Shown here: in pieces, positions 3,034-50,702 of the stretch
How the letters are laid out: the number at the start of each line of letters is the position of its first letter
Position numbering within the stretch: the stretch's first letter is position 1
From: Desulfocicer vacuolatum DSM 3385
GTDB taxonomy: Bacteria > Desulfobacterota > Desulfobacteria > Desulfobacterales > Desulfobacteraceae
Assembly (NCBI RefSeq): GCF_900176365.1
Contig: NZ_FWXY01000014.1
Location: 62,001-126,000 of the forward strand
Length of the DNA: 64,000 nucleotides
Direction of reading: 5' to 3'
Notes under the pieces: generated by a model
Database searches by the model: none
What the model was told of the DNA's origin: nothing
What the model saw: the letters and a program-made list of their open reading frames with translations, nothing else
Position numbers and translations under genes: made by a program

Positions 3034-3217
3034 CTTAACTTTCGGTGTTGGCATTTCGTGGTGGGGTCAGGCTTTCGTTATTGACATTATCGTGGCTTTT
3101 TTCGTTGGCAAAGGCCTTGGTCGATAACATCAATAACAAAAGCCTGACCCCGTCGGCACATTGAGCCCATCGGTACATTTAAAAATGCCGGCTTTGAAAT
3201 GAAGCCCGAAAGTTGAG
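3034..3217 (+). mobile_element. Family A miniature element, copy 1 (forward)
   Basis: 184 bp. The left terminus CTTAACTTTCGG (one change from the family's CTCAACTTTCGG) and right terminus CCGAAAGTTGAG form terminal inverted repeats. The element is flanked by the direct repeat TCATTAA at 3027-3033 and 3218-3224. An internal inverted pair built on GGGGTCAGGC / GCCTGACCCC surrounds the centre. It has no transposase coding capacity. It lies about 50 bp upstream of the metallo-hydrolase start. Confidence 0.93.
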
Positions 3218-12640: not shown

Positions 12641-12824
12641 CTCAACTTTCGGGCTTCATTTCAAAGCCAGCATTTTTAAATGTACCGATGGGGTCAGTGT
12701 ACCGACGGGGTCAGGCTTTTGTTATTGATGTTATCGACCAAGGCCTTTGCCAACGAAAAAAGCCTCGATAATGTCAATAACGAAAGCCTGACCCCACCAC
12801 GAAATGCGAACACCGAAAGTTGAG
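12641..12824 (-). mobile_element. Family A miniature element, copy 2 (reverse)
   Basis: 184 bp with perfect CTCAACTTTCGG / CCGAAAGTTGAG ends, flanked by GTATTAA at 12634-12640 and 12825-12831. It sits between the barrel gene and the old yellow enzyme gene of the minus-strand block, where its long internal inverted repeat could act as an RNA hairpin and uncouple the downstream three genes. Confidence 0.94.
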
Positions 12825-26978: not shown

Positions 26979-27161
26979 TCAACTTTCGGTGTTCGCATTT
27001 CGTGGTGGGGTCAGGCTTTCGTTATTGTCATTATCGAGGCTTTTTTCGTTGACAAAGGCCTTGGTCGATAACATCAATAACAAAAGCCTGACCCCGTCGG
27101 CACACTGACCCCATCGGTACATTTAAAAATGCCGGCTTTGAAATGAAGCCCGAAAGTTGAG
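26979..27161 (+). mobile_element. Family A miniature element, copy 3 (forward)
   Basis: 183 bp, one T shorter than the other copies (GCATTCGTGG in place of GCATTTCGTGG). The termini are CTCAACTTTCGG / CCGAAAGTTGAG and the target duplication is TTATAAA at 26972-26978 and 27162-27168. It lies about 310 bp upstream of the synthase start, so the cluster promoter may be on either side of it. A degenerate lone left end (CTCAGCTTTCGGTG) lies nearby at about 26758-26771. Confidence 0.94.
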
Positions 27162-34743: not shown

Positions 34744-34927
34744 CTCAACTTTCGGTGTTCGCATTTCGTGGTGGGGTCAGGCTTTCGTTATTGACATTAT
34801 CGAGGCTTTTTTCGTTGGCAAAGGCTTTGGGCGATAACATCAATAACAAAAGCCTGACCCCGTCGGCACACTGAGCCCATCGGTACATTTAAAAATGCCA
34901 GCTTTGAAATGAAGCCCGAAAGTTCAG
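34744..34927 (+). mobile_element. Family A miniature element, copy 4 (forward), at the glnA stop
   Basis: 184 bp. Left end CTCAACTTTCGG; right end CCGAAAGTTCAG (one change). Target duplication GTATTAA at 34737-34743 and 34928-34934. The right-hand duplication contains the TAA stop of glutamine synthetase (34931-34933), so insertion happened at the stop codon and kept it intact. Confidence 0.95.
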
Positions 34928-36700: not shown

Positions 36701-38131
36701 ATGGCTGGAAAAATGGAACAACAAAGGACTCCCGGGGTTCGAAAAATTCTTTTAAGGGGAGTGTTTTGGAGAATTCTTTTTATTGAGGGGGTGTTGCTGG
36801 TTTTCTCTCTTTTAGTCAGGGCCGTCACAGAAGATGCCGGTGCCATGGATCTCTTCTGGTACGGGGTGCGGATTGTTGCCCTGGTGGCTGTGATCATCTC
36901 CTTTATGATGATAAGTCTCAGACGATTTCTCACCCAGAGGATTATTTTTCCCCTGGAACAGATTGATCGTGCCAACAGGGCTTTGCACCGGGAGATAGAA
37001 TCCTTTCATCCTGTGCTGCTTCCGGGGGATGCCCCCCGGGAAATCCAGCGCATTGCGTGGTCCAGGGAAGAGATGTTAAAAAAAATTCTAAATGTTTCCC
37101 AGGAGCGTTTGAATCTTATTGATTTTATACGTCAAACCTTTGGTAAATACCTTTCTTCCAAGGTGGTGGATGAAATTTTGGAATCCCCGGATGGACTGAA
37201 AATCGGGGGAAGCAGGAAAAAGGTGACCATACTCATGTCTGATCTGCGGGGGTTTACCTATGTGTCTGAAAATAGAGACCCCCATGAAATGGTCCTTTAT
37301 TTAAATCGATATCTTGAAAAAATGTCTGAAATCATTTTAAAGTATGACGGTATCATTGATGAAATCATCGGGGATGCCATCCTTGCCGTGTTTGGGGCTC
37401 CAGAAAGCCATGGCAATGATCCCGAACGAGCCGTTGCCTGTGCCATTGAGATGCAGAACAGCTTGAATCTTCTTAACCGTTCTGTTGAATCCCAGGGGTT
37501 TCCCCCCATGGAGATGGGGATCGGGATTAATACAGGAGATGTGATTGTGGGTAATATCGGCTCGGAATTACGCATGAAATACGGCATTGTGGGTGCCACG
37601 GTGAATGAGGCCTCCCGCATAGAATCAAATACCGTTGGGGGAGAAATTTTGATGGGAGAGAGGACCCACAGATATGTGGAATCCATTGCTACTGTCACGC
37701 CACCCAAAACTGTTATGATGAAGGGCATGAGATCCCCCCTTGTTTTTTATGGGGTGTCTGCCATTGCAGGTTTCTATAATGTTGTCCTTGATGTTGTTGC
37801 AACTCCTGGAGAGGCCTTGTCAATAAGGCTTCCCTTTCAATATTGGCAAATTCATGACAAAAAGGTTAACAAGACTCCATTGATTGGCCATACACTTTCC
37901 ATAACAGATACACACATGGAGGTGATCCTTTTACCGAAACCGGCTCTTTTTACAAATTTGAAACTCAAATTTCAGTTTTGCCGGGAATTTCATTGTTTTA
38001 AAGATATTTATGCCAAGGTGGTTGAAATAAAAGAAAATAACAATCATACTGTGACCAAGCTTGCTATAACCACCATGTCCCCCGGTGACAGGGAAGTGAT
38101 CCAAAAGTGGACCTGGGAATTTTCCAACTAA
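36701..38131 (+). CDS. Membrane class III adenylate/guanylate cyclase
   Basis: 476 residues. Two transmembrane helices (about 20-40 and 55-75) lead through a HAMP-like linker to the cyclase homology domain. The metal aspartates are in MSDLRGF (about residue 178) and IGDAILAVFG (about 223), and the late N/R pair is in TVNEASRIES. The base-recognition position usually Asp in bacterial enzymes (IGDTVN) reads VGATVN, so nucleotide specificity is uncertain. After about residue 370 follows a roughly 100-residue beta-rich domain, perhaps PilZ-like but without an RxxxR motif that I can see. It is the first gene of a group with an FGE-like protein, a cyclic-nucleotide-binding transporter and a second cyclase. 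Confidence 0.9.
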   Translation: MAGKMEQQRTPGVRKILLRGVFWRILFIEGVLLVFSLLVRAVTEDAGAMDLFWYGVRIVALVAVIISFMMISLRRFLTQRIIFPLEQIDRANRALHREIESFHPVLLPGDAPREIQRIAWSREEMLKKILNVSQERLNLIDFIRQTFGKYLSSKVVDEILESPDGLKIGGSRKKVTILMSDLRGFTYVSENRDPHEMVLYLNRYLEKMSEIILKYDGIIDEIIGDAILAVFGAPESHGNDPERAVACAIEMQNSLNLLNRSVESQGFPPMEMGIGINTGDVIVGNIGSELRMKYGIVGATVNEASRIESNTVGGEILMGERTHRYVESIATVTPPKTVMMKGMRSPLVFYGVSAIAGFYNVVLDVVATPGEALSIRLPFQYWQIHDKKVNKTPLIGHTLSITDTHMEVILLPKPALFTNLKLKFQFCREFHCFKDIYAKVVEIKENNNHTVTKLAITTMSPGDREVIQKWTWEFSN

Positions 38132-38192: not shown

Positions 38193-38376
38193 CTCAACTT
38201 TCGGTGTTCGCATTTCCTGGTGGGGTCAGGCTTTCGTTATTGACATTATCGAGGCTTTTTTCCTTGGCAAAGGCCTTGGTGGATAACATCAATAACAAAA
38301 GCCTGACCCCGTCGGCACACTGAGCCCATCGGTACATTTAAAAATGCTGGCTTTGAAATGAAGCCCGAAAGTTGAA
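38193..38376 (+). mobile_element. Family A miniature element, copy 5 (forward)
   Basis: 184 bp. Left end CTCAACTTTCGG, right end CCGAAAGTTGAA, target duplication TGAATGA at 38186-38192 and 38377-38383. It lies between the first cyclase and the FGE-like gene, about 30 bp upstream of the latter's start. Confidence 0.94.
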
Positions 38377-38407: not shown

Positions 38408-39295
38408 ATGATAGTTCATGGAAAGGGATTCAATTTTATGGAATTTTTTCTCCAGAAGCATATGATTTTCCAGAGAAAAATTTTCATAGGCCTTATATCC
38501 ATAATATTGTTTGCCCCGGTGTTGCAAACAGACGATATCTGTGCCCTGGAAGCGTCCTTTGTCAATGAAGTGGGCATGGAATTTATTTTGGTTCATCCGG
38601 GGGGGTACATCATGGGAAGCCCGGTGGACGAACCTTTCCGGAGCCGCAATGAACCCCAGCACCGGGTGGAGATAAAAAAAGCATTTTACATGCAGGCAAC
38701 GGAGGTGACCCTGAAACAGTGGCACAGTATCATGCCCAAAAAAAGTTTTATTCTTCGAAAAGGGGCAGATGATATGCCGGTGACCCGGGTTTCCTATTAT
38801 AATTGCCGACGGTTTGTTGGGAAACTCAGCCGCAGAACCAATCAAACCTATCGATTGCCCACGGAGGAAGAGTGGGAATATGTGTGCCGGGCGGGCACCA
38901 CCACTGCCTATAGTTTTGGTGACACCGTGGACTGCACAAAGGCCATGTTTGGCAATAACAGCCTGAAATGCACCGACTGCATTGAAGAATCCAGATCCAG
39001 GGGACTTGAACTGGACAAACCGGCTCCGGTGAAGAGCTATCCTCCCAATCCCTGGGGCTTTTATGACATGCATGGTAATGTATGGGAATGGGTGTCTGAT
39101 GCATATCATGGCTATCTGGCCCAGGATGACGGGGTGCTGCCAGGCAGAGAACGATCCTGGGATACCCGTATCAAACGGGGGGGCAGCTGGTTTATGTACG
39201 GACATTATTGTCGCAGCGCCAACAGAGCCTGGGCCCACCCCGGCGGGAAATTTAAAACCACGGGATTCCGGGTGGTGCTTGAGGTAGCCAAATGA
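38408..39295 (+). CDS. Exported SUMF1/FGE-family (formylglycine-generating-enzyme-like) protein
   Basis: 295 residues. An N-terminal hydrophobic segment (FQRKIFIGLISIILFAPVL) fits a signal peptide or anchor. The SUMF fold is clear: FVNEVGMEFILVHPGG, RLPTEEEWEYVCRAG, GFYDMHGNVWEW, RGGSW and TTGFRVV. In true formylglycine-generating enzymes a Cys pair follows RGGS; here the stretch reads FMYGHYC, with the first Cys replaced by Met, so canonical oxidase activity is unlikely. It may be a structural or ligand-binding relative. The stop overlaps the transporter start by 4 bp (ATGA), so the two are translationally coupled. Confidence 0.88.
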   Translation: MIVHGKGFNFMEFFLQKHMIFQRKIFIGLISIILFAPVLQTDDICALEASFVNEVGMEFILVHPGGYIMGSPVDEPFRSRNEPQHRVEIKKAFYMQATEVTLKQWHSIMPKKSFILRKGADDMPVTRVSYYNCRRFVGKLSRRTNQTYRLPTEEEWEYVCRAGTTTAYSFGDTVDCTKAMFGNNSLKCTDCIEESRSRGLELDKPAPVKSYPPNPWGFYDMHGNVWEWVSDAYHGYLAQDDGVLPGRERSWDTRIKRGGSWFMYGHYCRSANRAWAHPGGKFKTTGFRVVLEVAK

Positions 39296-42200
39296 CAAAA
39301 AAATTTCTCAACATGTTTAAGGTGTACGAAGATGAGATTGCCCTTCTGTTATGGACGGTGGCTCTTTTATTCATCATTCGAAGCGCCGGAACCCTGCTGA
39401 ATAATTTTGCTGAAACCGCTTTTCTCAAACGTTATGGCGTGGAATATCTTCCGGTGGTGAACATGATCAATGCGGTGGTTACTTTTTTTATCACCGGAGT
39501 GCTCACGGCGTTCACCGGTCGCATGGCAGCCACACGGCTGCTTTCCCGGGTGTTTATTATCTGCGGTGTCTGCATCACACTCATGCGTCTTGCCATTCCA
39601 TTGGGATTTGAAATCATCTATCCTGTATTGTTTATGATGAAAAGTCAGTTTGAGATGCTCCAGGCCCTGATGTTCTGGAACCTGGCCAATGATCTTTACA
39701 ATACCCGGCAATCCAAACGGCTTTTTCCCCTGGTCACCGCCGGCGGGGTGGTGGGGATGATTCTGGGAAGTTTTTTAACCCCCTGGATGGCCTCTGTTTT
39801 TCGCATGGATAACTTGCTTTATGTCTACCTGGCCTTAACACTGTCCGGGGCTTTTTTGGTCAATGCCATGACTTCCCGCTTTCCCACGCTGATTTTTTCT
39901 GATCATAAAACCGGTGGTGCCAAGGGCCGTACTCCCATGATTGAGGAGATTAAGCGAGTGGTTCCTCTGATAAAAGAGTCCACCTTGTTTAAAATTGTGC
40001 TGGTGTTGACATTCATGCCCAATGTGGTGATTCCCATTCTCAATTATCAGTTTAACTATGCCATTGACAGTCAGTTTGCCAGTGAATCCGGTATGATTCA
40101 TTTTTTTGGTTATTTCAGAGGTTTTTTAAACATTATCAGTCTTTTTATTTTGCTGTTTGTGGGAAGGATTTACGGTCGCTGGGGAATCTCTGTGGCTTTG
40201 ATGTTTCATCCCTTTAACTATGCCATTGCCCTGCTGGGATTCTTGTTCAGGTTTGATATCTTTGCGGCCATGTATGCCAGGATGTCCATTAATGTGATTC
40301 GAACCACCATAAATGTGCCTGCCAATGCCATTTTAATGGGATTGTTTCCCGATTCTTACCGCGCCATGGTGCGTCCATTTCTACGGGGAACAGTGGTAAG
40401 GGCAGCCCTTTTCCTGGGTTCCGGCTTGATTCTTATTTCCACCCACTACTTTGATCTTCATCCCCGCTATCTGACTTTGGTGGCCCTTCCCTTTGTCATT
40501 GCCTGGGCTGCGGCTCCCTTTGTGTTGAAGTCTGCCTATACACGGATTTTGATGGATCTGATGAAAACCGACATGTTTGAATTCAAACAGTTTGACGGCA
40601 AACAGCTTGCCCAGATATTCAAGGGCGGTAAAATCCAGGAAGCCCTTATCAACGCATTCTTAAAGGCCGACGGTAAAAATACCGTGTGGTATGCCAGGTT
40701 GCTTAAACATTTCGGTATAGAAAATTTTGATTCCCTGATACTGGAAAAACTGCCCTCCCAAAAGGAATCCGTGCAAATCGCCCTTGTGAATATGCTTTCC
40801 AAAGAGTTGGAACAAGAGGCCATGAAACAACTTTTGGGGCAGGCTCATCCAGACGCCCACGGTGTTTCCATCGCTGCATTCAGCCATCTTATCCAGTGTG
40901 AAAATCATTGCAGGATAGATGCCCTGGAAAAGGTGCCCATGGAGATGTTTCTCAACAGTGCCAATGCCGGGGTCCGGGGTCATGCTTTGGCGTGCCTGTG
41001 GCCAAAAGAACCGGAAAAATGTGCAGCCACCCTTAATGCGTGGCTTGCATCTCCAGAAGACGATGATCAAAGGGCCGGTGCCGTGTGTGCCGGATTTGTG
41101 GGGGATGATGTGGTTACCCCCATGCTGCTGAACCTTTTATATGCGTCTCCTTCTCCGGGTCTCATTGCCGATCTTCTGGTGTCATTGTCAAAACTTGGCA
41201 TGGAAGATATCAATGATGTGATTTTTCCTTATCTTATCCATGGGGATAAAAGAATTAGGAAAGCCGCTGTTACAGCCCTGGATATTAATGATGAAACAGC
41301 CTTTGGCCACGCCCTTCAACGGGTGGGGGACAGTGATGAATCCATCCGGGAACTGGCTGCACAACGCATCCGTGACGCCAAATATCAGAACAACCGCATT
41401 GTGGTGGAATCCCTTGCCGTTCCCGACACCCGGCTGCGCAAAGGGCTTTTTGAACTGTTGGAACATCTGGATATAAAAGATGGGGATATTTACCATTTTG
41501 CCAGAAAAGGCCTTGAAAATTGTTATCTCTATATTGCCATGGGGCTCAATATTGACTCTTTGCCCACCACCCCTGTGAGGGAACTTGTGAAAACCCATTT
41601 ATTCCAGAAAAAAGAATTGATTCTGGAAAATGTGATCCGGGTACTGGTGATTCGTGATGAAACAGGTCGCATGAAAACCGCATGGAAAGGGATCTTTTCT
41701 TTGAATCAAAAACACAATGCCAATGCCATTGAGTTGTTGGGAGATCTTCTGGATCGTCGGTTGTTTGATACCATGCGTCCCCTTCTGGAAAGCCCCACGC
41801 CTGAAGTTGCCGTGATGGAGGGTCGCCCCTTTGTAACCATTCCGGAATTTGATTCAAAGGGAGTGGAGGTGTTTCACCGACTGGTGCTGTCCAAGGACTG
41901 GGTGGATGTTGTCATGGGGCTTGATTTAAGTCTGGAAGATCCTGAACTTAAGGAACCGGTAAGCTTCTGGGAGACCCATGATGCCTTTACATCCCATCAT
42001 ATCATAAAGGAAATTGAAATGATCAAACACAAAAAAGCCGCAGATGTTAAGGAAAAGAAAGGGAGCTCCAGACAGGAGATTTCCCTTGCTGAAAAAATTA
42101 TGCTTTTGCGGGAAATTGATATTTTTTCAGATCTTAAAGTGGCTGAACTTGCAGCCATTGCCGCAGTGACAGAGGAAGTTTCCTATCCGCCGGATGAAAA

Positions 42201-42516
42201 AGTGTTTAAGCAGAATGATGTGGGTGATTCGGTGTTTATGGTGATTTCCGGTCTTGTGGAGGTGGTGCGGGAGCTGTCTTTGGAGGATCGGGTTGTTCTG
42301 GATACCATTAACCGGGGCGGTGCCTTTGGAGAGATGGCCCTTTTAGATGATTCCCCCCGGTCGGCAACCATACAGACGGTGGAATTTTCCCGGTTTTTGA
42401 CCCTTCACAAACAGGCCTTTAACGAAACCGTGATGGAGTATCCCCGGATTGCATTACAGATATGTTCCATACTCAGCCAGCGTATCCGGCATCTGCACGG
42501 TAAAATTGATCAGTGA
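39292..42516 (+). CDS. NTT/MFS-like transporter fused to HEAT-like repeats and a cyclic-nucleotide-binding domain
   Basis: 1074 residues. The first 420 or so contain about 12 transmembrane helices in an MFS/NTT (ATP:ADP antiporter-like) pattern. Residues about 430-830 are helical pairs resembling HEAT repeats (for example RIRKAAVTALDIND and ESIRELAAQRIRD). Residues about 935-1060 form a CRP-type cyclic-nucleotide-binding domain whose phosphate cassette GEMALLDDSPRSAT keeps the Glu and Arg that bind cNMP (about residues 1011-1023). By context the ligand could come from the cyclases on either side. Transport substrate unknown. Its start overlaps the FGE-like gene, and the second cyclase starts about 140 bp after its stop. 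Confidence 0.88.
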   Translation: MTKKFLNMFKVYEDEIALLLWTVALLFIIRSAGTLLNNFAETAFLKRYGVEYLPVVNMINAVVTFFITGVLTAFTGRMAATRLLSRVFIICGVCITLMRLAIPLGFEIIYPVLFMMKSQFEMLQALMFWNLANDLYNTRQSKRLFPLVTAGGVVGMILGSFLTPWMASVFRMDNLLYVYLALTLSGAFLVNAMTSRFPTLIFSDHKTGGAKGRTPMIEEIKRVVPLIKESTLFKIVLVLTFMPNVVIPILNYQFNYAIDSQFASESGMIHFFGYFRGFLNIISLFILLFVGRIYGRWGISVALMFHPFNYAIALLGFLFRFDIFAAMYARMSINVIRTTINVPANAILMGLFPDSYRAMVRPFLRGTVVRAALFLGSGLILISTHYFDLHPRYLTLVALPFVIAWAAAPFVLKSAYTRILMDLMKTDMFEFKQFDGKQLAQIFKGGKIQEALINAFLKADGKNTVWYARLLKHFGIENFDSLILEKLPSQKESVQIALVNMLSKELEQEAMKQLLGQAHPDAHGVSIAAFSHLIQCENHCRIDALEKVPMEMFLNSANAGVRGHALACLWPKEPEKCAATLNAWLASPEDDDQRAGAVCAGFVGDDVVTPMLLNLLYASPSPGLIADLLVSLSKLGMEDINDVIFPYLIHGDKRIRKAAVTALDINDETAFGHALQRVGDSDESIRELAAQRIRDAKYQNNRIVVESLAVPDTRLRKGLFELLEHLDIKDGDIYHFARKGLENCYLYIAMGLNIDSLPTTPVRELVKTHLFQKKELILENVIRVLVIRDETGRMKTAWKGIFSLNQKHNANAIELLGDLLDRRLFDTMRPLLESPTPEVAVMEGRPFVTIPEFDSKGVEVFHRLVLSKDWVDVVMGLDLSLEDPELKEPVSFWETHDAFTSHHIIKEIEMIKHKKAADVKEKKGSSRQEISLAEKIMLLREIDIFSDLKVAELAAIAAVTEEVSYPPDEKVFKQNDVGDSVFMVISGLVEVVRELSLEDRVVLDTINRGGAFGEMALLDDSPRSATIQTVEFSRFLTLHKQAFNETVMEYPRIALQICSILSQRIRHLHGKIDQ

Positions 42517-42659
42517 TAAACTTTTCCCCGTGGAATTAACCAAAAGCTCATCAGTATGCCAAGTGTGTCTGTTGCAACTTTTGGTTGGAAGGCAAGCGCT
42601 GTGACTCCTTCCAACAAGGTGTATCAACATTGGAACCGGATCTGTTAAGGATTGTTTGC

Positions 42660-43580
42660 ATGGCATTAGACAGCAATAATAAATTGTATGAAATTTTATT
42701 GGATGTGGCAAAAAAAGTGTCCATGGGAGATTATGACAACGTAGACAACCTCATGGAGCTGACCACCCGGGGTAAATATCCTCCCCAGGTGTCAGAGCTT
42801 GCCGAAGCCTTTGGCATGATGGTGGTTAAGATTGAATCCCGTGAATTTAACCTTCAACAATTGCTTGAAAAGATAAAAAGTAAAAATAAAAAACTGGAAG
42901 AAACCCTCCAACGGGTCCAGTTATTGGAAGGTGTTCAGAGCCATTTGAGTAAATTTGTACCCAAATCAGTGCAGGATATCATTGAGGATAACCCTGAAAA
43001 TCCGGATTTGAACAAACATGAAAAAGATTTGTCTGTATTGTTTCTTGATATTGCCGGGTACACCAAAATGAGTGAAAATATCTCCCAGGAAAAAATGAAT
43101 TATCTCATTGAAACTTATTTCAGCGAATTTTTGAACATTATTGCCGAAAATAAAGGCGATATCAATGAAACCGCCGGTGACGGCCTCATGATTCTTTTCC
43201 AGGATGAAAATCCCCGGACCCATGCCGTTAATGCGGTTTCCGCCGCCATCGGTATCCAGAAAAAAACGCTTGTTATCAATGAATCCTTAAAGAAAAAATA
43301 TGATCCGGTGATGGTGAACATGGGCATTAATTCCGGTAAAGCGTCCGTGGGTTCCACCCGTTTCAAGGGGGTTGCCGGAGATCGATGGACCTATACGGCA
43401 TCCGGACCTGTCACCAATATTGCGGCCCGGGTCTGTTCAGTGTCAAAGGGAGGTGAGATTCTGGTGACATCTTCAACATCGCGTCACATTGAAGACAGAT
43501 TTAAACTGGGATCACCCAGGGAACAGGCCTTGAAAAATGTCAGTAAGCCCATTCAGCTCCGGGAGATCATTGTTGAGTAA
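42660..43580 (+). CDS. Soluble class III adenylate/guanylate cyclase
   Basis: 306 residues from ATG 42660 (TAAGG ten bases upstream); an in-frame TTG 25 codons earlier has no ribosome-binding site. An N-terminal helical region ending in a coiled coil (about 65-90, KIKSKNKKLEETLQRVQLLE) leads to the cyclase domain. Metal aspartates are in LFLDIAGYT (about residue 130) and AGDGLMILF (about 172); the N/R pair is in VTNIAARV. No transmembrane segment is seen. It probably makes cAMP or cGMP in the cytoplasm for the cyclic-nucleotide-binding transporter upstream. A strong terminator follows the stop, which closes the four-gene group. Confidence 0.91.
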   Translation: MALDSNNKLYEILLDVAKKVSMGDYDNVDNLMELTTRGKYPPQVSELAEAFGMMVVKIESREFNLQQLLEKIKSKNKKLEETLQRVQLLEGVQSHLSKFVPKSVQDIIEDNPENPDLNKHEKDLSVLFLDIAGYTKMSENISQEKMNYLIETYFSEFLNIIAENKGDINETAGDGLMILFQDENPRTHAVNAVSAAIGIQKKTLVINESLKKKYDPVMVNMGINSGKASVGSTRFKGVAGDRWTYTASGPVTNIAARVCSVSKGGEILVTSSTSRHIEDRFKLGSPREQALKNVSKPIQLREIIVE

Positions 43581-43982: not shown

Positions 43983-44166
43983 CTCAACTTTCGGGCTTCA
44001 TTTCAAAGGCGGCATTTTTAAATGTACCGATGGGCTCAGTGTGCCGACGGGGTCAGGCTTTTGTTGTTGATGTTATCGACCAAGGCCTTTGCCAACGAAA
44101 AAAGCCTCGATAATGTCAATAACGAAAGCCTGACCCCACCACGAAATGCGAACACCGAAAGTTGAG
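43983..44166 (-). mobile_element. Family A miniature element, copy 6 (reverse)
   Basis: 184 bp with perfect CTCAACTTTCGG / CCGAAAGTTGAG ends. The flanking duplication is GTGGTTTA (8 bp) at 43975-43982 and 44167-44174. It lies between the small membrane protein gene and the 3' end of the PP-loop ATPase gene. Confidence 0.94.
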
Positions 44167-44239: not shown

Positions 44240-45379
44240 TTAAAGCTTAAGGCTTTTTTGTTTGTTCAGTAATTTTTCAATGGTGTTAACCAGATCCATA
44301 CGCCCCTGTTTTCTCAATAGCGGTAACACCGCCTGATAATAGGGCGGACGTTTACGGATGGTGATGTCATATTTGGCGATCATATCCGGGGTAACATCAT
44401 TTTCCACAAAGGCGTCTGTTTTATCAAGGGCACCAATGGCCAGAAGTTCAATCATGGTGCGCACGCATTTTTCGCACACCCCGCAGTTCAGGCGATGGGG
44501 CACATTGGCAAGACACACCCTGAAATTGTTCAGCGCCACCTCCCAGCCTGCCACAATTTTTATTTTATCCAGCCGGGACTGATCATGGTCCCGGTGGCGG
44601 ATGCGCATGTCATGGCTGGAGTATTCCGGATCCCTTAACGGGTGGGATGCATTGGGATGAAGATAGGAAACATCGTAGCAGGAGCCGATGTAAACCATGT
44701 GCAGAACTTTTGCAAAGGCGTGGGAGATGGAAGCCAGCACAGCACCGAAAAAATTTTCCAGCCACAAAACCCGGTTGTCGCAAAGATGCCGGATGTTGGT
44801 GTACACTGGTACCAGCTCAACATCTGCGGCATCGGTGATCCGGGTGATGGCGGTGACAGCCCGGTCGTACACATGATATTTCATGCCCCGCTCCACCACA
44901 CCGCCAATGTCAAATCCATGGATAAAAAGTCCCTCTTTAATTGAACCCGGGTGGGAGGCAGGGTAGCGCAGTCGGTTAAGTCGCAGGGCTGCCAGGGAAT
45001 CCATACCCCCGGACATGACCATGCCGGCATGCCTGTTATCGGAAAACAGTGCGTGATCCAGCACATCGGTTTCAATTTTCAGCGGAGTATAATCCCCCTT
45101 GCTCCACACCTGGGTGATGGCCATGGCAATGTTAAGCCCCTCCAGCAGGGTGGGGCAGATTTTTTCATCCATTTTAATTCTTTTTTCATGGAAATGCATG
45201 GCCGGGATGAGGCATCCCACCAGAAAGGCATGGGGATTTAATGACAGCTTATCTGCTGTGGCATGGGGGGTTTTGATGAAAATGGTTTTTCCGGGATGGT
45301 CACTTTCTTCAAATTGCACCCTGGCACTGATCTGGGTGAATGCATGGTCTTTTGTCCGGTTCAGTTGCGAGATAATCAT
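44240..45379 (-). CDS. PP-loop ATP pyrophosphatase (asparagine-synthase-C-like)
   Basis: 379 residues. The PP-loop MSGGMDSLAAL is at about 122-132, the adenylate-forming signature of asparagine synthetase C domains and tRNA-modifying relatives. Near residue 296 a NCGVCEKC cluster could bind metal. No N-terminal glutaminase domain is present, so any amide nitrogen must come from ammonia or another donor. The specific reaction is not recognisable. It is the third gene of a tight operon: 15 bp after the ATP-grasp gene, which overlaps the GNAT gene. This fits adenylation of an acid followed by amide formation on a small peptide-like product. Confidence 0.82.
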   Translation of the reverse strand: MIISQLNRTKDHAFTQISARVQFEESDHPGKTIFIKTPHATADKLSLNPHAFLVGCLIPAMHFHEKRIKMDEKICPTLLEGLNIAMAITQVWSKGDYTPLKIETDVLDHALFSDNRHAGMVMSGGMDSLAALRLNRLRYPASHPGSIKEGLFIHGFDIGGVVERGMKYHVYDRAVTAITRITDAADVELVPVYTNIRHLCDNRVLWLENFFGAVLASISHAFAKVLHMVYIGSCYDVSYLHPNASHPLRDPEYSSHDMRIRHRDHDQSRLDKIKIVAGWEVALNNFRVCLANVPHRLNCGVCEKCVRTMIELLAIGALDKTDAFVENDVTPDMIAKYDITIRKRPPYYQAVLPLLRKQGRMDLVNTIEKLLNKQKSLKL

Positions 45380-45394
45380 AGACGGCCTTTTAAA

Positions 45395-46297
45395 TTATTC
45401 ATTATTTGTCCGCTTGTGGCGGTTTATACGGTGGCACACATGCTCAATGATTTTTCCGGCAATATCAATATGGGTGGCCTCTTCCAGTCCCCGGAACCCC
45501 GGGGAATAGTTTACCTCCATAATATATGGTCTTCCCTCTGCCGTAATAATCAGATCCACCCCGGAAATTTCCAGATGACACGCCCTGGTGGCCTTGATGG
45601 CCATTGTTTTCCATTCAGCGGATAGATCTACGCATTGGGCCTTGCCGTTAAGATGAAAATTACTTCTGAATTCTCCCTTTCCCGGGGATAAGGCCATGGC
45701 CCCGATGACCTCATTTCCCACCACCAGAATGCGCAGATCCCTGCGGTTTTCCGGTGGAATAAAACGCTGGACCACGGCACCTTTTTTTTCTTTTAGCAAT
45801 GTGTGGCAAAGCTTGGAAATATCATCGTTCCCGGTGATTTTAAAAACCCCTTCACCTCCCATACCGTCCATTTTTTTGGCAATGACCGGATAGCCGCCCA
45901 AAAGTGTCACGGCCCGGTGGAACCCCTCTTCGGCAGTAATAAAAAAGGTGTCTGGTACCGGCAGGTCTGCCGCAGCCAGGGTCTGGAGGGTGATGTACTG
46001 GTTTCTGGCAATGGTGATGCCTTCAACTCCGTTGATCAGAGGAATATTCAGGTGCATCAATTGGCGGAGCAGGGCCATACCATACTCCCCCATGGGTGAA
46101 CCTTGTCTGGGTAACACCACATCCAGAGGAGAAACAAGGTCATTAACGGTGTATTGAAATTTACCTTTACCAATGCCGGACAACATTTTGTAAGGATTGA
46201 TCAGGCAAATCTTGCATCCCTGTTGTTCTGCGGCCTGGGCAAGTCGCATGGTGGGATGAAATGAATAATCATTAACGGTCATGATGCCGATGTTCAT
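45395..46297 (-). CDS. RimK-type ATP-grasp ligase
   Basis: 300 residues with the RimK layout: a Rossmann-like N-domain (MNIGIMTVND ... INPYKML), the central ATP-grasp segment VIAKKMDGMGGEGV, the RDLRILVVGNEVIGAM strands and the metal-binding MEVNYSPGF near residue 265. Such ligases join a carboxylate, activated as acyl phosphate, to an amino acid or peptide amine. The start overlaps the GNAT stop (ATGA). The C-terminal INRHKRT is encoded by a fragment of family B repeat, so this end has been remodelled by the repeat. Confidence 0.9.
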   Translation of the reverse strand: MNIGIMTVNDYSFHPTMRLAQAAEQQGCKICLINPYKMLSGIGKGKFQYTVNDLVSPLDVVLPRQGSPMGEYGMALLRQLMHLNIPLINGVEGITIARNQYITLQTLAAADLPVPDTFFITAEEGFHRAVTLLGGYPVIAKKMDGMGGEGVFKITGNDDISKLCHTLLKEKKGAVVQRFIPPENRRDLRILVVGNEVIGAMALSPGKGEFRSNFHLNGKAQCVDLSAEWKTMAIKATRACHLEISGVDLIITAEGRPYIMEVNYSPGFRGLEEATHIDIAGKIIEHVCHRINRHKRTNNE

Positions 46298-47667
46298 TTG
46301 TGTAATTTTTCCATGTTGCTGTTAATCATCTGTTCCGGCATCCAGATACCGGCGGGTTTTCCCATTTGTTCACTGTAATAGGTGACCACTTTGCGGGTTT
46401 TGTTTCGTATGGCAATTTTCTGGGTGGCAGTGTTATCCTCACTGATGATGGAAAAAATTTTGTGATCTTCTGCCCGGGCCGTCAATCCTTCCAGAAGTTT
46501 TGCCCCCACCCCCAATGCCCGGTATTCCGGCCTCACCGAGGTATACCCCCGTTCCAGAAAATGGGTAAAATCCATGTTTGATATTTTATTAATTCGTTCA
46601 ATAAAGGGTTTTCTGGGGCGTTTTAAACTGGAATTCCCCACAATTACCCCGTTTTCCATGGCATAGGCAATGAGAAAGGCCCGCTCCAGGTTGTATCTCA
46701 CCCATTTTGTGGCCACAGATCCACCCGCCTCCACCATTTTGCATATTTCATCTAAATATTTCGGCGGCAGGTTTTCCGGTTTTTCAAAATAAAAGGTGAT
46801 ATCCTTTCCCAGGGAAAAAATTGTTCCACAGGCCGTATCCACCCGCATGGGAAAAAGTTCTTTGCGGGAATAGCAGGTGAGGTAACCCAGTAAACGGGTG
46901 GGATCATTCAGGGCCTGCCACAGGGGAATCCCCGGCAGTTGTTCAACATCGCTGTAAGGTATTTCCATGTCAAGCCTGGGACGGGCATTAAAATCATCAT
47001 TTTTTTTTGTTGCCCGGGAGATTACTGCCATTTCATGGGAATGGGCAATGTTGGGGTTGGAAAGGACAAAGGAGAAAAAGGGGGGTGTTTTTGAAATATT
47101 TTCATTAAAGCCAAGAATAAAGTGATTCCATATTCCTTTTTTGGACAGTTGCCATAACGCTTTGGTCTCCAATTTTTTTTCCGGATGGGGAATCTGCCAT
47201 TGGATCATGCAAAGGGTGGAAATGGTAAAAAAATTTTCTGCAAGCTCAAACGGGGGCTTTCCATCCCGGATTACCCGGGTAATACCCATGGTAATATTTT
47301 TTTTGCGGTGAATTGCTTCCAACACCCGGAATAGAAAATCGTCACTTTCAAAAGGCATTTCAAAGAAAAGCGCATCTGCCCGGGTGGCATCAATACTTTG
47401 GATGATGTTGTTGATAAAAGAATCAATGTCCGGGTGGAAATCTTCTTTTTTGGTGCAATAGGGTGTTGGGGACGGTTCGGGAATTTTTTTTCTGGAATTT
47501 TCCGGTGGGCAGTCAGGAAGATGATGATCCATGGCGACATCATGGGAGATAAGGCTCATTTGGGTGGTTGCCGGGGGAAAAATCGGCTGGAATTTATCCA
47601 GGGGAGGATCAATTTCCGGGGGTTGTTTTGAATGGATCAATAAAATATTTTTTTTTATATGTTTCAT
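46294..47667 (-). CDS. GNAT-family N-acetyltransferase with large N-terminal extension
   Basis: 457 residues. The C-terminal third carries a GNAT core: YTSVRPEYRALGVGAKLLEGL is the acetyl-CoA pyrophosphate-binding region (R-x-x-G-x-G/A pattern), followed by IISEDNTATQKIAIRNKTRKV. The N-terminal 290 or so residues are unrecognised and start with a Pro/His-rich stretch. It probably acylates an amine of the product joined by the next gene. It is the first gene of the three-gene GNAT / ATP-grasp / PP-loop operon, whose composition recalls the N-acetylglutaminylglutamine amide cassette, though the domains are distributed differently. Confidence 0.8.
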   Translation of the reverse strand: MKHIKKNILLIHSKQPPEIDPPLDKFQPIFPPATTQMSLISHDVAMDHHLPDCPPENSRKKIPEPSPTPYCTKKEDFHPDIDSFINNIIQSIDATRADALFFEMPFESDDFLFRVLEAIHRKKNITMGITRVIRDGKPPFELAENFFTISTLCMIQWQIPHPEKKLETKALWQLSKKGIWNHFILGFNENISKTPPFFSFVLSNPNIAHSHEMAVISRATKKNDDFNARPRLDMEIPYSDVEQLPGIPLWQALNDPTRLLGYLTCYSRKELFPMRVDTACGTIFSLGKDITFYFEKPENLPPKYLDEICKMVEAGGSVATKWVRYNLERAFLIAYAMENGVIVGNSSLKRPRKPFIERINKISNMDFTHFLERGYTSVRPEYRALGVGAKLLEGLTARAEDHKIFSIISEDNTATQKIAIRNKTRKVVTYYSEQMGKPAGIWMPEQMINSNMEKLHK

Positions 47668-47879
47668 GGTGAGAGTATGTTACTTTATTTTTACGTGATT
47701 TTCAATGGATTAAACAGGTTAAAAGCGTTTTATGTAAATTCTCAATAACCTCGGGTTGATACCCCCTGACAGTGCTTTAAATGCCGGATGATATTCAGAA
47801 CGGATACTTGAATACCCGGACTTATTGAGATCTTACCGTTTTATCGTCTGATGAATCAAAAAGATTTTTTGGGAACCTT

Positions 47880-48860
47880 ATGAAAATAGCTTTTTTAATG
47901 GATCACCTGCGCAGTATTGATCCTGTCTGGGAGACCACCTCCCATTTAATGTATGAGTGCAACCAGCGTGGACACACTGTTTTTTTTCTGGAACCCCATG
48001 ACCTTTATATAAGAGATAACGGGGTGGTGGCCAGGATGCACAACATCACCGTGCAAAAGGATTTATCCATTAAAGCTTACTGGGATGCCCTTATTGACTG
48101 CCTGGTCCAGGATGAGCTTATTTTTGAAACGGTCATTGAACTGGATGTTATTTTTTTAAGAAAAGATCCTCCCATCAATTATCAGGTCATGGAGTTCTTA
48201 GGCCCTGTGTGTGATCGGGTTTTTGTCATGAATCGTCCCATGGGTCAAATCAAAGGTAACAGTAAAGTCTATACCTTGAATTTTGCCCATATTATCCCCC
48301 AGACCCATATTTCAAGGGATCCCAAACGTCTGCGGCGAATTATTGATAATTTCGGGGGTGACATGATTATAAAGCCCCTTCAGGGACATGGCGGGGAGGG
48401 AGTCATCAAGGTAAGCAATCGTGACCCTGAAAATTTAAATTCCTTGATTAACTATTATATCCGGGCCAATCGACCCTATCCCCAGCGTCAGCCCATCATG
48501 GTGCAGGAATACCTGGAAGATGTTAAAAAGGACGGGGACGTAAGAATACTGCTGCTTAACGGGGATATCCTCGGTGCCATGAAACGTAAATCCGTGTCCG
48601 AAGATTTCAGAACCAATGTTCATGCCGGGGCCGAAGTGCTTTTCCATGAAATAACACCTGCCCAGAAATCAATCTGCGATATCATTAAGCCCAGACTCAT
48701 GGAAGATGGGCTTTATTTTGTGGGGATTGATGTCATTGGAGACAAACTTCTTGAAATTAATTGTGTCAGTCCCGGTGGCATTCCCCGGATCAATCAACTC
48801 ACCGGGCAGAAGATTGAAACCCGGGTGATTGATTTTATTGAGCATAAGATTTTTAAATAA
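47880..48860 (+). CDS. Glutathione synthetase-like ATP-grasp ligase (GshB family)
   Basis: 326 residues against about 315 for E. coli GshB. Matching blocks include MKIAFLMDHL, DVIFLRKDPPINYQ, IIKPLQGHGGEGV, KDGDVRILLLNGD, LYFVGIDVIGDKLLEIN and SPGGIPRIN. The family joins glycine to gamma-glutamylcysteine; no gamma-glutamylcysteine ligase is nearby, and the context of peptide-ligase and peptide-transport genes suggests a related but possibly different dipeptide product. It is divergent from the GNAT operon, 212 bp away. The TAA stop is formed by a family B repeat edge. Confidence 0.88.
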   Translation: MKIAFLMDHLRSIDPVWETTSHLMYECNQRGHTVFFLEPHDLYIRDNGVVARMHNITVQKDLSIKAYWDALIDCLVQDELIFETVIELDVIFLRKDPPINYQVMEFLGPVCDRVFVMNRPMGQIKGNSKVYTLNFAHIIPQTHISRDPKRLRRIIDNFGGDMIIKPLQGHGGEGVIKVSNRDPENLNSLINYYIRANRPYPQRQPIMVQEYLEDVKKDGDVRILLLNGDILGAMKRKSVSEDFRTNVHAGAEVLFHEITPAQKSICDIIKPRLMEDGLYFVGIDVIGDKLLEINCVSPGGIPRINQLTGQKIETRVIDFIEHKIFK

Positions 48861-48925
48861 CCGCCACGGGCAGACCGTGCCTGATTCGGTTTTGCCCATA
48901 ATTTTTTCGGATTTTTTTATATGAA
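48858..48925 (+). repeat. Family B repeat, short variant
   Basis: It starts TAACCGCCACGGGCAGACC with the stop codon of the GshB-like gene as its first bases, keeps TTTTGCCCATAA and then ends in TTTTTTATATGAAA. The substrate-binding-protein reading frame opens inside its last bases. Confidence 0.75.
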
Positions 48926-50702
48926 AACAATGCTGTCCAGTGCCGACATTACTTCCATTGATCTGTATCACACCTGGGTACGGGTGCGTCTGAAGGCTTT
49001 TTTTATGATCACTGTTTTCATGGTGTTTTGTTTGCTTTCCTGTCAGGAGAAATCCACAAAAGAGATTTTAAAAATAGGGCTTCCAGAAGAGCCGCGCACC
49101 CTTAATGTGTGGCTGGCAAGTGACTCCAACTCTTGGAAAATTTTATCCCAGATTTACCAGCCCATGTACCTGCGGGACCCGGACACCCTGGAACTTATTC
49201 CCTGGCTGGCAAAGGATATGCCGGTGCTGGACAGGGAAAACATGAGTTACCTTGTGACATTAAAGGCGGCAAAATGGTCCGACGGTACCCCTTTTACTGC
49301 CCATGACGTGGCCTTCACCGCCGGGGTGTTTCACGATTTTAAAGTCCCCCGGTACTACAGCAAATGGAAGGCCGTTGAAAAAATTGAAGTGGTGGATGAT
49401 CACACAGTGCGTTTTTTCCTGAAAAAACCCTCTGCCATTATTTTATCCCGGGTGTTCACTGCTCCCATGGTTTCCCAAAAACGATGGCAGCCGGTGGTGG
49501 ATGCGGCATTAAAAACCCGGAAACCCCTGCGGACCCTGCAGAATCATAAAATTGAATCCCCCCTGGGCACAGGCCCTTTTGTGCTTTCGCAATATCAAAA
49601 GGGCACTTTTATTTACATGGAGAAAAATCCCCGGTTTTTCGGCACAGGGCGCACCATGGCCCACCGTCGTCTGGGGCCATGGGTGGACGGCGTGATCTAC
49701 AGAATGTACGGCACCGGTGATGTGGCCATTCTTGCCCTGCAAAAGGGAGAAATTGATATGTACTGGTGGGGTATTCAACCGGGATATGTGGCCCAGTTGA
49801 CTCAAACCCCGGACATTGAACTGTTCCATAACCACAAAAGTGCCCTGTACTTCATGGGATTTAATGTAAGAAAAGCCCCCTTTGATGACAGGGCACTCCG
49901 GCGGGCCGTTGCCACCCTCATTGATAAAGAATTCATTGTCACCCGTCTTCTTCAAAATTACGGCATTGCCATGCACTCCATTGTACCCCCGGGCAATGCA
50001 TTCTGGCATAATCGTGATGTGCCCCGGTACAGTGAGGGGTTAAACCGTGATCAGCGCATTGCAAAGGCCCATGACCTTTTAAAACAGGCAGGATACACCT
50101 GGGAAACTCCTCCGGTGGACGAAAATGGAAACATCCAAACGGCCCGCAATATCCGTCTTCCCAATGGGAATCCCATGGAAAAAATGATTATCCTGACCCC
50201 ACCGGCGGACTATGATCCCAAACGGGCCTTTGCCGGTATGATGATACAGGAATGGATGCGGGAGATGGGGATTCCCGCCTTTGCCCGGCCCATGTCCTTT
50301 GGGGCGCTCCTGGACAAGGTCAAGGGAAAGCATGATTTTGATGCCTTTGTTCTGGGATACGGCAGACTCAATCTGGACCCCGATTATGTGAGAACCTTTT
50401 TTTATTCTAAAAATGACAAGCCCCGGGGATGGAATATGAGTGGATATAAGAATCCTCTGTTTGATGACCTGGCCAACCGGCAGCGGGCTGAAATGGATCG
50501 AAACAGGCGAAGAGAACTGTTGATTGAAATGCAGCGCATTATCCTTGATGATGTGCCCTATATTCCTTTGTATAATCCTGATATCCTGGAGGCATCCTCC
50601 CGGAAGCGCTTTAACGGATGGGTGGAAAGCCTGGAAGGCATCGGTAATATCTGGTCCCTTTGCATGGTTAAACCTGTAACGGCAACGGAACTTAATCCAT
50701 GA
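48921..50702 (+). CDS. Peptide ABC transporter substrate-binding lipoprotein (DppA/OppA, SBP_bac_5)
   Basis: 593 residues as drawn; starts at GTG 48984 or ATG 49006 (preceded by GAAGG) would give a normal lipoprotein signal peptide ending at LLSC. The SBP_bac_5 fold is visible: LKIGLPEEPRTLNVW, KWSDGTPFTAHDVAFTAG, FMGFNVRKAPFDDRALRRAV and PYIPLYNPD. It binds oligopeptides or similar ligands outside the inner membrane and delivers them to the two permeases that follow. Its stop overlaps the first permease start by 4 bp. The true start is uncertain. Confidence 0.92.
   Translation: MKTMLSSADITSIDLYHTWVRVRLKAFFMITVFMVFCLLSCQEKSTKEILKIGLPEEPRTLNVWLASDSNSWKILSQIYQPMYLRDPDTLELIPWLAKDMPVLDRENMSYLVTLKAAKWSDGTPFTAHDVAFTAGVFHDFKVPRYYSKWKAVEKIEVVDDHTVRFFLKKPSAIILSRVFTAPMVSQKRWQPVVDAALKTRKPLRTLQNHKIESPLGTGPFVLSQYQKGTFIYMEKNPRFFGTGRTMAHRRLGPWVDGVIYRMYGTGDVAILALQKGEIDMYWWGIQPGYVAQLTQTPDIELFHNHKSALYFMGFNVRKAPFDDRALRRAVATLIDKEFIVTRLLQNYGIAMHSIVPPGNAFWHNRDVPRYSEGLNRDQRIAKAHDLLKQAGYTWETPPVDENGNIQTARNIRLPNGNPMEKMIILTPPADYDPKRAFAGMMIQEWMREMGIPAFARPMSFGALLDKVKGKHDFDAFVLGYGRLNLDPDYVRTFFYSKNDKPRGWNMSGYKNPLFDDLANRQRAEMDRNRRRELLIEMQRIILDDVPYIPLYNPDILEASSRKRFNGWVESLEGIGNIWSLCMVKPVTATELNP

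Follow-up and report, generated by a model that had tools for sequence, protein, structure and literature searches.

The 64,000-nucleotide stretch of Desulfocicer vacuolatum DSM 3385 analyzed here (contig NZ_FWXY01000014.1, positions 62,001 to 126,000; hereafter the window) carries a cassette of four enzyme genes encoding a GNAT acyltransferase, a RimK-like ATP-grasp ligase, a PP-loop protein and a GshB-like ATP-grasp ligase, accompanied by the gene for an NTT-type transporter fused to HEAT repeats and a cyclic-nucleotide-binding domain (NTT-HEAT-cNMP). A functional linkage of the GNAT, PP-loop, GshB-like and NTT-HEAT-cNMP proteins is, in our judgment, close to certain. We tentatively read the cassette as serving the synthesis and transport of a single small compound, which is probably a short peptide bearing an N-acyl group and an amide-capped carboxylate, and assign this reading a probability of about 45%.

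Organization of the cassette

The four enzyme genes and the region between the two transcription directions are arranged as follows.
44240-45379, minus strand: PP-loop gene (379 amino acids), last in a three-gene operon
45395-46297, minus strand: RimK-like ATP-grasp ligase gene (300 amino acids), a probable amino acid (L-glutamate-like) ligase
46294-47667, minus strand: GNAT gene (457 amino acids), first in the operon
47668-47879: divergent intergenic region of 212 bp between the operon and the GshB-like gene
47880-48860, plus strand: GshB-like ATP-grasp ligase gene (326 amino acids), catalytic residues kept

A previous reading of this DNA from its letters and open reading frames (the sequence-only reading) had described the first three genes as tightly coupled, which is borne out by the 4-bp overlap of GNAT and RimK (46294-46297) and the 15-bp gap between RimK and PP-loop (45380-45394). 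It had also placed the GshB-like gene as facing the operon; the adjacency stands, but the genes are divergent, lying head to head 212 bp apart, and not convergent. Searches of Pfam and NCBIfam recognized RimK, GSH-S_N/GSH-S_ATP and Acetyltransf_1 in the cassette proteins, none of which contains a glutaminase domain, as had been remarked before.

Conservation and co-inheritance in relatives

Neighborhoods were compared by taking stretches of at most 20 kb at 45 places in relatives and scanning them with family hidden Markov models built for this analysis; the genomes covered are those at the level of the order plus some of the phylum, not the whole tree. The order GNAT-RimK-PP-loop on one strand was found in 39 of the 39 loci holding all three genes (window included), usually with a spacing of 0-50 bp, and the arrangement is therefore not due to chance. 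Co-inheritance was followed by searching 194 genomes of the order with four proteins (PP-loop, GNAT, GshB-like and NTT-HEAT-cNMP). Cassette-type PP-loop proteins, defined by a score of at least 370 bits, were present in 24 of these, and the GNAT occurred in exactly these 24 genomes and in no other. The GshB-like ligase was found in 22 and the NTT-HEAT-cNMP protein in 23 of the carriers, each with one further occurrence in genome G390. Among the exceptions to the full set, genome G502 is only 75% complete, while genome G315 (contigs C4 and C54) has neither the GshB-like ligase nor the NTT protein, its GNAT gene is in two pieces with stops and its PP-loop gene contains a stop; this is a decaying cassette. 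The carriers are spread over 12 families, some of which also hold non-carriers, resulting in a patchy pattern. The hypergeometric probability of this co-occurrence (p = 3e-31) ignores shared ancestry and is to be taken as an order of magnitude only.

In three genomes from other families of the phylum (loci L086-L088) the NTT, GNAT, PP-loop and GshB genes are clustered with no RimK gene between them. Since RimK is missing from these clusters that keep GshB, the GshB-like ligase belongs to the core, whereas RimK is an added step. At L087 and L088 the transporter, GNAT, PP-loop and GshB-like genes follow each other in that order on one strand.

The sequence-only reading had treated the enzymes as one set, to be checked by neighborhood conservation and to be given up if relatives held the genes separately. 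The synteny and the co-occurrence across 194 genomes show that the genes are a real, conserved unit, inherited together, to which the second ATP-grasp ligase belongs; separation is not what the relatives display. As described then, the set was right for the four enzymes but incomplete, as the NTT-HEAT-cNMP transporter gene is equally tightly linked and lay inside the fetched stretch in 32 of 46 neighborhoods. No published account of a cassette with this make-up was found in the open-access collection searched, a scope outside which most subscription journals fall.

The PP-loop protein is of the QueC/QatC type

The window PP-loop protein is a PP-loop ATP pyrophosphatase of the QueC/QatC type with two recognizable motifs.
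44996-45013, minus strand: SGGMDS pyrophosphate-binding loop, residues 123-128
44465-44515, minus strand: Cys4 motif C289-x9-C299-G-x-C302-x2-C305, a likely zinc site as in QueC

The protein has no Pfam or NCBIfam match even at E<=1, and the QueC Pfam family PF06508 matched 7 of 31 relatives weakly (best 6e-4) and the window protein not at all. Residues S123, G124, G125, D127 and S128 are at least 95% conserved among 41 aligned PP-loop proteins, and the Cys4 motif (C-x9-C-x2-C-x2-C) is invariant in the 31 diverse relatives and kept in the cassette family. An AlphaFold model calculated from these 31 relatives reached a pLDDT of 91.8. In VIA-align comparisons its top match was QatC (9y02_B, Z 15.5, root-mean-square deviation 4.5 over 293 residues, spanning model positions 1 to 374), followed by QueC (Z 12.4) and Cap9 (Z 12.0), with tRNA thiolases and lysidine synthetases ranking lower. 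The Foldseek list for the same model contained no match with E below 0.001 and mostly unrelated folds. A profile comparison between the PP-loop family and the QueCs of these genomes gave a probability of 89%. The proposal that the enzyme is an asparagine synthetase minus its glutaminase does not agree with the model match and the profile comparison, and an asparagine-synthetase-like identity was ruled out by the null Pfam/NCBIfam result together with the VIA-align ranking.

The window protein shares with QueC the core fold, the SGGxDS loop and the Cys4 motif, but it is about 150 residues longer, its Cys4 spacing is C-x9 instead of the canonical x8 (PMC13329287) and the YPDC stretch is not kept. 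A separate canonical QueC is encoded on contig C41 of the same genome. In QueC and Cap9 the YPDC stretch serves to recognize 7-carboxy-7-deazaguanine (CDG) (PMC13279940, PMC13329287). By sequence-profile alignment only, an HPLR stretch falls over the YPDC positions, and the YPDC Tyr and Asp of QueC and Cap9 align with His246 and Leu248 of the PP-loop protein; S-H-P-L is conserved in nearly all of the 41 proteins. Because a conserved SHPL region replaces YPDC, CDG is unlikely as substrate, as far as can be judged from the alignment. Judging from its superfamily, the most likely reaction of the enzyme is adenylation of a carboxylate, followed by transfer to ammonia or another amine.

The resemblance to QatC comprises the whole-length fold match and the SGGxDS loop, and Cap9 of type IV CBASS likewise has a QueC-type core; both, however, are only about 10-16% identical to the window protein and differ in their substrate-pocket residues. 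QatA, QatB, QatD and CBASS genes were absent from the conserved cassette neighbors.

A contig scan with exact peptide patterns from the PP-loop protein recovered only distant relatives, none of them above 36% identity over an extended stretch; because patterns of this kind miss cassette members, the scan has no bearing on absence elsewhere. At loci L089, L166 and L184, two tandem PP-loop paralogues occur without a GNAT gene, next to genes that, named from sequence only, are ABC polysaccharide-export-like, GMC-oxidoreductase-like and iron-sulfur/NrfD-like. These tandem pairs belong to a different branch, and their context suggests a separate role in surface polysaccharide modification.

Two ATP-grasp ligases with intact catalytic residues

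The RimK-like ligase matches PF08443 (2e-37), scores 181 bits with TIGR00768, above the subfamily cut-off of 143.4, and is similar to PDB entries 7qyr and 5zct (E<=2e-37). It shares with solved RimK alpha-L-glutamate ligases the substrate-side stretches (E/D)FRSN(F/L)H and MEVNxSPG. It differs from them in remaining far under the S6-ligase equivalog cut-off (NF007764, 149.7 bits against 331) and in having GNAT and PP-loop genes beside it in a conserved cassette.

The GshB-like ligase contains GSH-S_ATP (5.5e-51) and GSH-S_N (1.7e-20). Against the glutathione synthase models it scored 274.1 bits with PRK05246 (cut-off 272), 249.7 with TIGR01380 (299) and 284 with PRK12458 (408). With glutathione synthase GshB the window protein has about 32-37% identity and the ATP-, Mg- and arginine-site residues in common; all or nearly all of 19 cassette GshB-like proteins retain the residues that correspond to K125, K160, R210, R225, R233, D273, E281 and N283 of E. 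coli GshB. In contrast, the cassette group is changed at E. coli positions T285, R291 and E292. Its members are 59-75% identical to the window protein and cluster together, separate from the sampled canonical GshBs (support 85/91), a modest test with five canonical sequences. The GshA families PF04107 and PF04262 were searched for in this genome and neither was present, while among 15 genomes tested 4 had a PF04107 match, a strong one in three cases. Plain glutathione synthesis, named by the sequence-only reading as an alternative outcome, is unlikely on its own since this genome has no GshA family.

The GNAT protein and its relic domain

Two parts can be distinguished in the product of the first operon gene.
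46303-46815, minus strand: GNAT acyltransferase domain, 19 invariant columns in alignment A2, motif RxxGxG
46816-47445, minus strand: what is left of a B12-binding/radical-SAM domain, namely its C-terminal part without the iron-sulfur motif

The Acetyltransf_1 match (23.6 bits, cut-off 20.7) is confined to the C-terminal third of the protein, and the CoA-binding motif A (RxxGxG/A), which reads PEYRALGVGAKLL in the window GNAT, is conserved across alignment A2. The N-terminal part of the family ranges from none to about 535 residues, and eight relatives have a standalone GNAT domain of about 170-200 amino acids. The profile A3 of this N-terminal part has 487 positions, of which the remnant in the window protein covers 278-486. 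A3 also matches ordinary B12/radical-SAM proteins of the same genomes with E down to 2.6e-15. These carry CYWxKCxFC, and the match of A3 to the intact proteins ends just before this iron-sulfur motif; C-x3-5-C-x2-C occurs in none of the GNAT fusion N-termini. The N-terminus of the window GNAT is thus a relic of a B12/radical-SAM domain and not part of the acyltransferase. As the eight standalone GNATs demonstrate, the relic can be dispensed with.

Fusions of a GNAT with a decayed B12/radical-SAM domain were also observed at L150, L154, L164, L167, L170-L172 and L176, in many genomes and at very different lengths. Viral and plasmid relatives of the GNAT were looked for and none were found. At L085 (3392-4849) and L159 (9014-10468) a PAS/sigma-54 activator gene, called by Pfam for the L159 copy and by sequence similarity for the L085 copy, directly follows a standalone GNAT and parts it from RimK and PP-loop; the activator is a possible regulator of the cassette.

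Transporter, cyclases and wider neighborhood

The following genes flank the four enzymes.
36701-38131, plus strand: class III nucleotidyl cyclase (476 amino acids; PF00211 1.1e-26)
38408-39295, plus strand: FGE/sulfatase-modifying-factor-like protein with a signal-like N-terminus (PF03781 1.5e-45)
39292-42516, plus strand: NTT-type (TLC) transporter with HEAT repeats and a cyclic-nucleotide-binding domain (1074 amino acids)
42585-43580, plus strand: class III nucleotidyl cyclase domain protein (331 amino acids; PF00211 2.9e-17)
48921-50702, plus strand: peptide-type ABC transporter solute-binding protein (PF00496 9e-65)

The transporter combines PF03219 (24.0 bits, cut-off 21), PF13646 (41.6 bits) and PF00027 (70.8 bits) in one chain. 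Fusions with the same three-domain architecture are widespread in bacteria and uncharacterized, and a link to adenylate cyclase has been suggested for them (PMC5381601). Whereas no partner pathway was described for those fusions, the window protein is co-inherited with a ligase/acyltransferase cassette. A second NTT-HEAT-cNMP paralogue of the same genome (C47:174435-177608) is 35% identical to the window protein.

Clustering of all neighboring genes placed class III nucleotidyl cyclases near the cassette in 19 loci. The gene of the FGE-like protein overlaps the transporter gene by 4 bp in the window, and a member of its family is near the cassette in 20 loci. The solute-binding protein gene starts an Opp/Dpp-like set that runs to about 54596 and includes ATPase subunits; with an occurrence near the cassette in 15 loci it is a looser associate. 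Glycosyltransferase or polysaccharide genes were not recognized among the widely conserved cassette neighbors. When 402 short intergenic open reading frames near cassettes were searched for precursors of ribosomally synthesized and post-translationally modified peptides (RiPPs), nothing recurred apart from genes of ribosomal proteins with their shadows, and these in no more than 4 loci. The conserved short precursor gene beside the ATP-grasp gene that marks a graspetide-type RiPP system was thus not found.

An 89-bp palindromic element is present in six copies in the window (3063-3151, 12707-12795, 27007-27095, 34773-34861, 38222-38310 and 44049-44137). Its outer arms read GGGGTCAGGCTTT(C/T)GTT, with 12 arm matches against 0.06 expected, and it looks like an element of the repetitive extragenic palindromic (REP) or miniature inverted-repeat transposable element (MITE) type.

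Proposed pathway and alternative explanations

From the linkage and co-inheritance of the genes, the protein families and the intact catalytic residues we infer the order of steps, the substrates, the amide product and the direction of transport as follows. The GshB-like and RimK-like ligases would build amide bonds from amino acids with ATP via acyl-phosphates, and the GNAT would acylate a free amine from acyl-CoA. The PP-loop enzyme would adenylate the carboxylate and couple it to ammonia or another amine; this amidation would need no glutaminase, because QueC uses free ammonia. Transport of the product, or of a precursor, across the membrane would fall to the NTT-HEAT-cNMP protein, controlled by cyclic nucleotides from the neighboring cyclases. 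An acyl-peptide amide, an osmolyte or a thiol, as suggested by the sequence-only reading, is a plausible candidate product.

Several points weigh against this pathway, whose substrates and product are deduced from the genes. For QatC and Cap9 the apparent target is the N-terminus of a protein and not a small peptide (PMC13279940), and the substrates for which NTT proteins are known are nucleotides rather than peptides (PMC5381601). Other PP-loop relatives reside in polysaccharide loci, and the three outlying cassettes without a nearby RimK indicate that not every step is universal. Moreover, phylogenetic non-independence makes the p-value given above too optimistic, even though the pattern is patchy within families.

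Protein modification is the alternative that survives best, but we consider it unlikely. The PP-loop enzyme would activate a carboxylate and join it to a partner protein at the N-terminus, with RimK (glutamylation) and GNAT (acylation) modifying the same protein or tag. The whole-length QatC match as the best structural hit points in this direction, as do the RimK-type enzymes that modify protein ends and the N-terminus coupling that has been proposed for QatC and shown for Cap9 (PMC13279940). However, neither a QatB-like partner nor a conserved short open reading frame was found near the cassette, PADLOC matched none of the four window enzymes, Qat models included, the CDG-recognizing Tyr and Asp align with His246 and Leu248 in the sequence-profile alignment, and GshB homologues act on small peptides.

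Somewhat less probable is a decoration of the cell surface, in which the cassette would make an acylated substituent, either an amino acid or a peptide, to be placed on a polysaccharide or lipid, and the transporter would move it outward. PP-loop relatives in polysaccharide and O-antigen-type loci, the inclusion of the N-sugar amidotransferase WbpG in cluster 5 of the QueC family (PMC13329287) and the FGE-like protein with a signal-like N-terminus adjoining the transporter would fit such a function. Yet the conserved neighbors include no recurrent glycosyltransferase or polysaccharide gene, and the PP-loop relatives in polysaccharide loci belong to a different branch (25-44% identity) that is not accompanied by cassette-type GNAT or GshB.

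A nucleotide-linked product, in which a peptide would be joined to a nucleotide or a 7-deazapurine, is improbable in our view, even though it would explain why an NTT-fold carrier is co-inherited with a QueC-type ligase. The CDG-recognition residues of QueC are not kept, no queD or queE gene recurs nearby, and NTT-HEAT-cNMP fusions, uncharacterized as they are, also exist in organisms and contexts without the cassette (PMC5381601).

That a housekeeping glutathione synthase and an S6-type RimK lie side by side by chance is refuted by the co-inheritance in the sampled genomes and hence very improbable: the GshB-like protein is barely over the PRK05246 cut-off (274 versus 272), whereas the TIGR01380 and S6-ligase cut-offs are not reached, the genome has no GshA family, and co-occurrence and synteny are strict.

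A split form of the N-acetylglutaminylglutamine amide (NAGGN) cassette, the likeness drawn by the sequence-only reading, is largely refuted and equally improbable. In principle the three activities are the same, as in both systems an acetyltransferase domain is combined with an ATP-grasp ligase and a PP-loop enzyme that amidates a carboxyl group. The notion of a split version did not hold, as the genome has an intact canonical NAGGN pair on contig C46 (C46:14000-26000, L233; TIGR03104 952 bits, TIGR03103 790 bits) and the window PP-loop enzyme is QueC/QatC-like, not AsnB-like. While the NAGGN cassette (ngg, TIGR03103; asnO, TIGR03104) has a fused GNAT-ATP-grasp protein and an AsnB-type enzyme with glutaminase, the window cassette consists of separate proteins, with RimK- and GshB-type ligases, a QueC/QatC-type PP-loop enzyme without glutaminase and, in addition, a transporter. 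The window RimK-like ligase scored 27.6 bits with TIGR03103 (fused GNAT and ATP-grasp; cut-off 569), and the window PP-loop protein gave no match to TIGR03104 (AsnB-type with a glutaminase domain) even at E<=1. The window cassette is an additional system beside the NAGGN cassette. A glutamine-synthetase-like gene and further large open reading frames were observed beside the latter on C46.

Implications

Where genomes of this group lack GshA, annotations as glutathione synthase are probably mistaken. Should the proposed product be right, it would be a common unrecognized metabolite of this order (24 of 194 sampled genomes, 12 families), and the cassette would provide the first functional context for NTT-HEAT-cNMP transporters and a non-defense setting for QatC-like enzymes, whose own chemistry is still debated (PMC13279940). 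A bolder reading, which we hold to be rather doubtful, is that an undescribed class of metabolite is made by a pair of ATP-grasp ligases together with a GNAT and a carboxyl-activating enzyme of the QatC type, with an NTT-fold carrier and cyclic-nucleotide control; if true, the NTT-HEAT-cNMP family would gain its first natural pathway, and a QatC-like enzyme would for the first time have a role in small-molecule chemistry.

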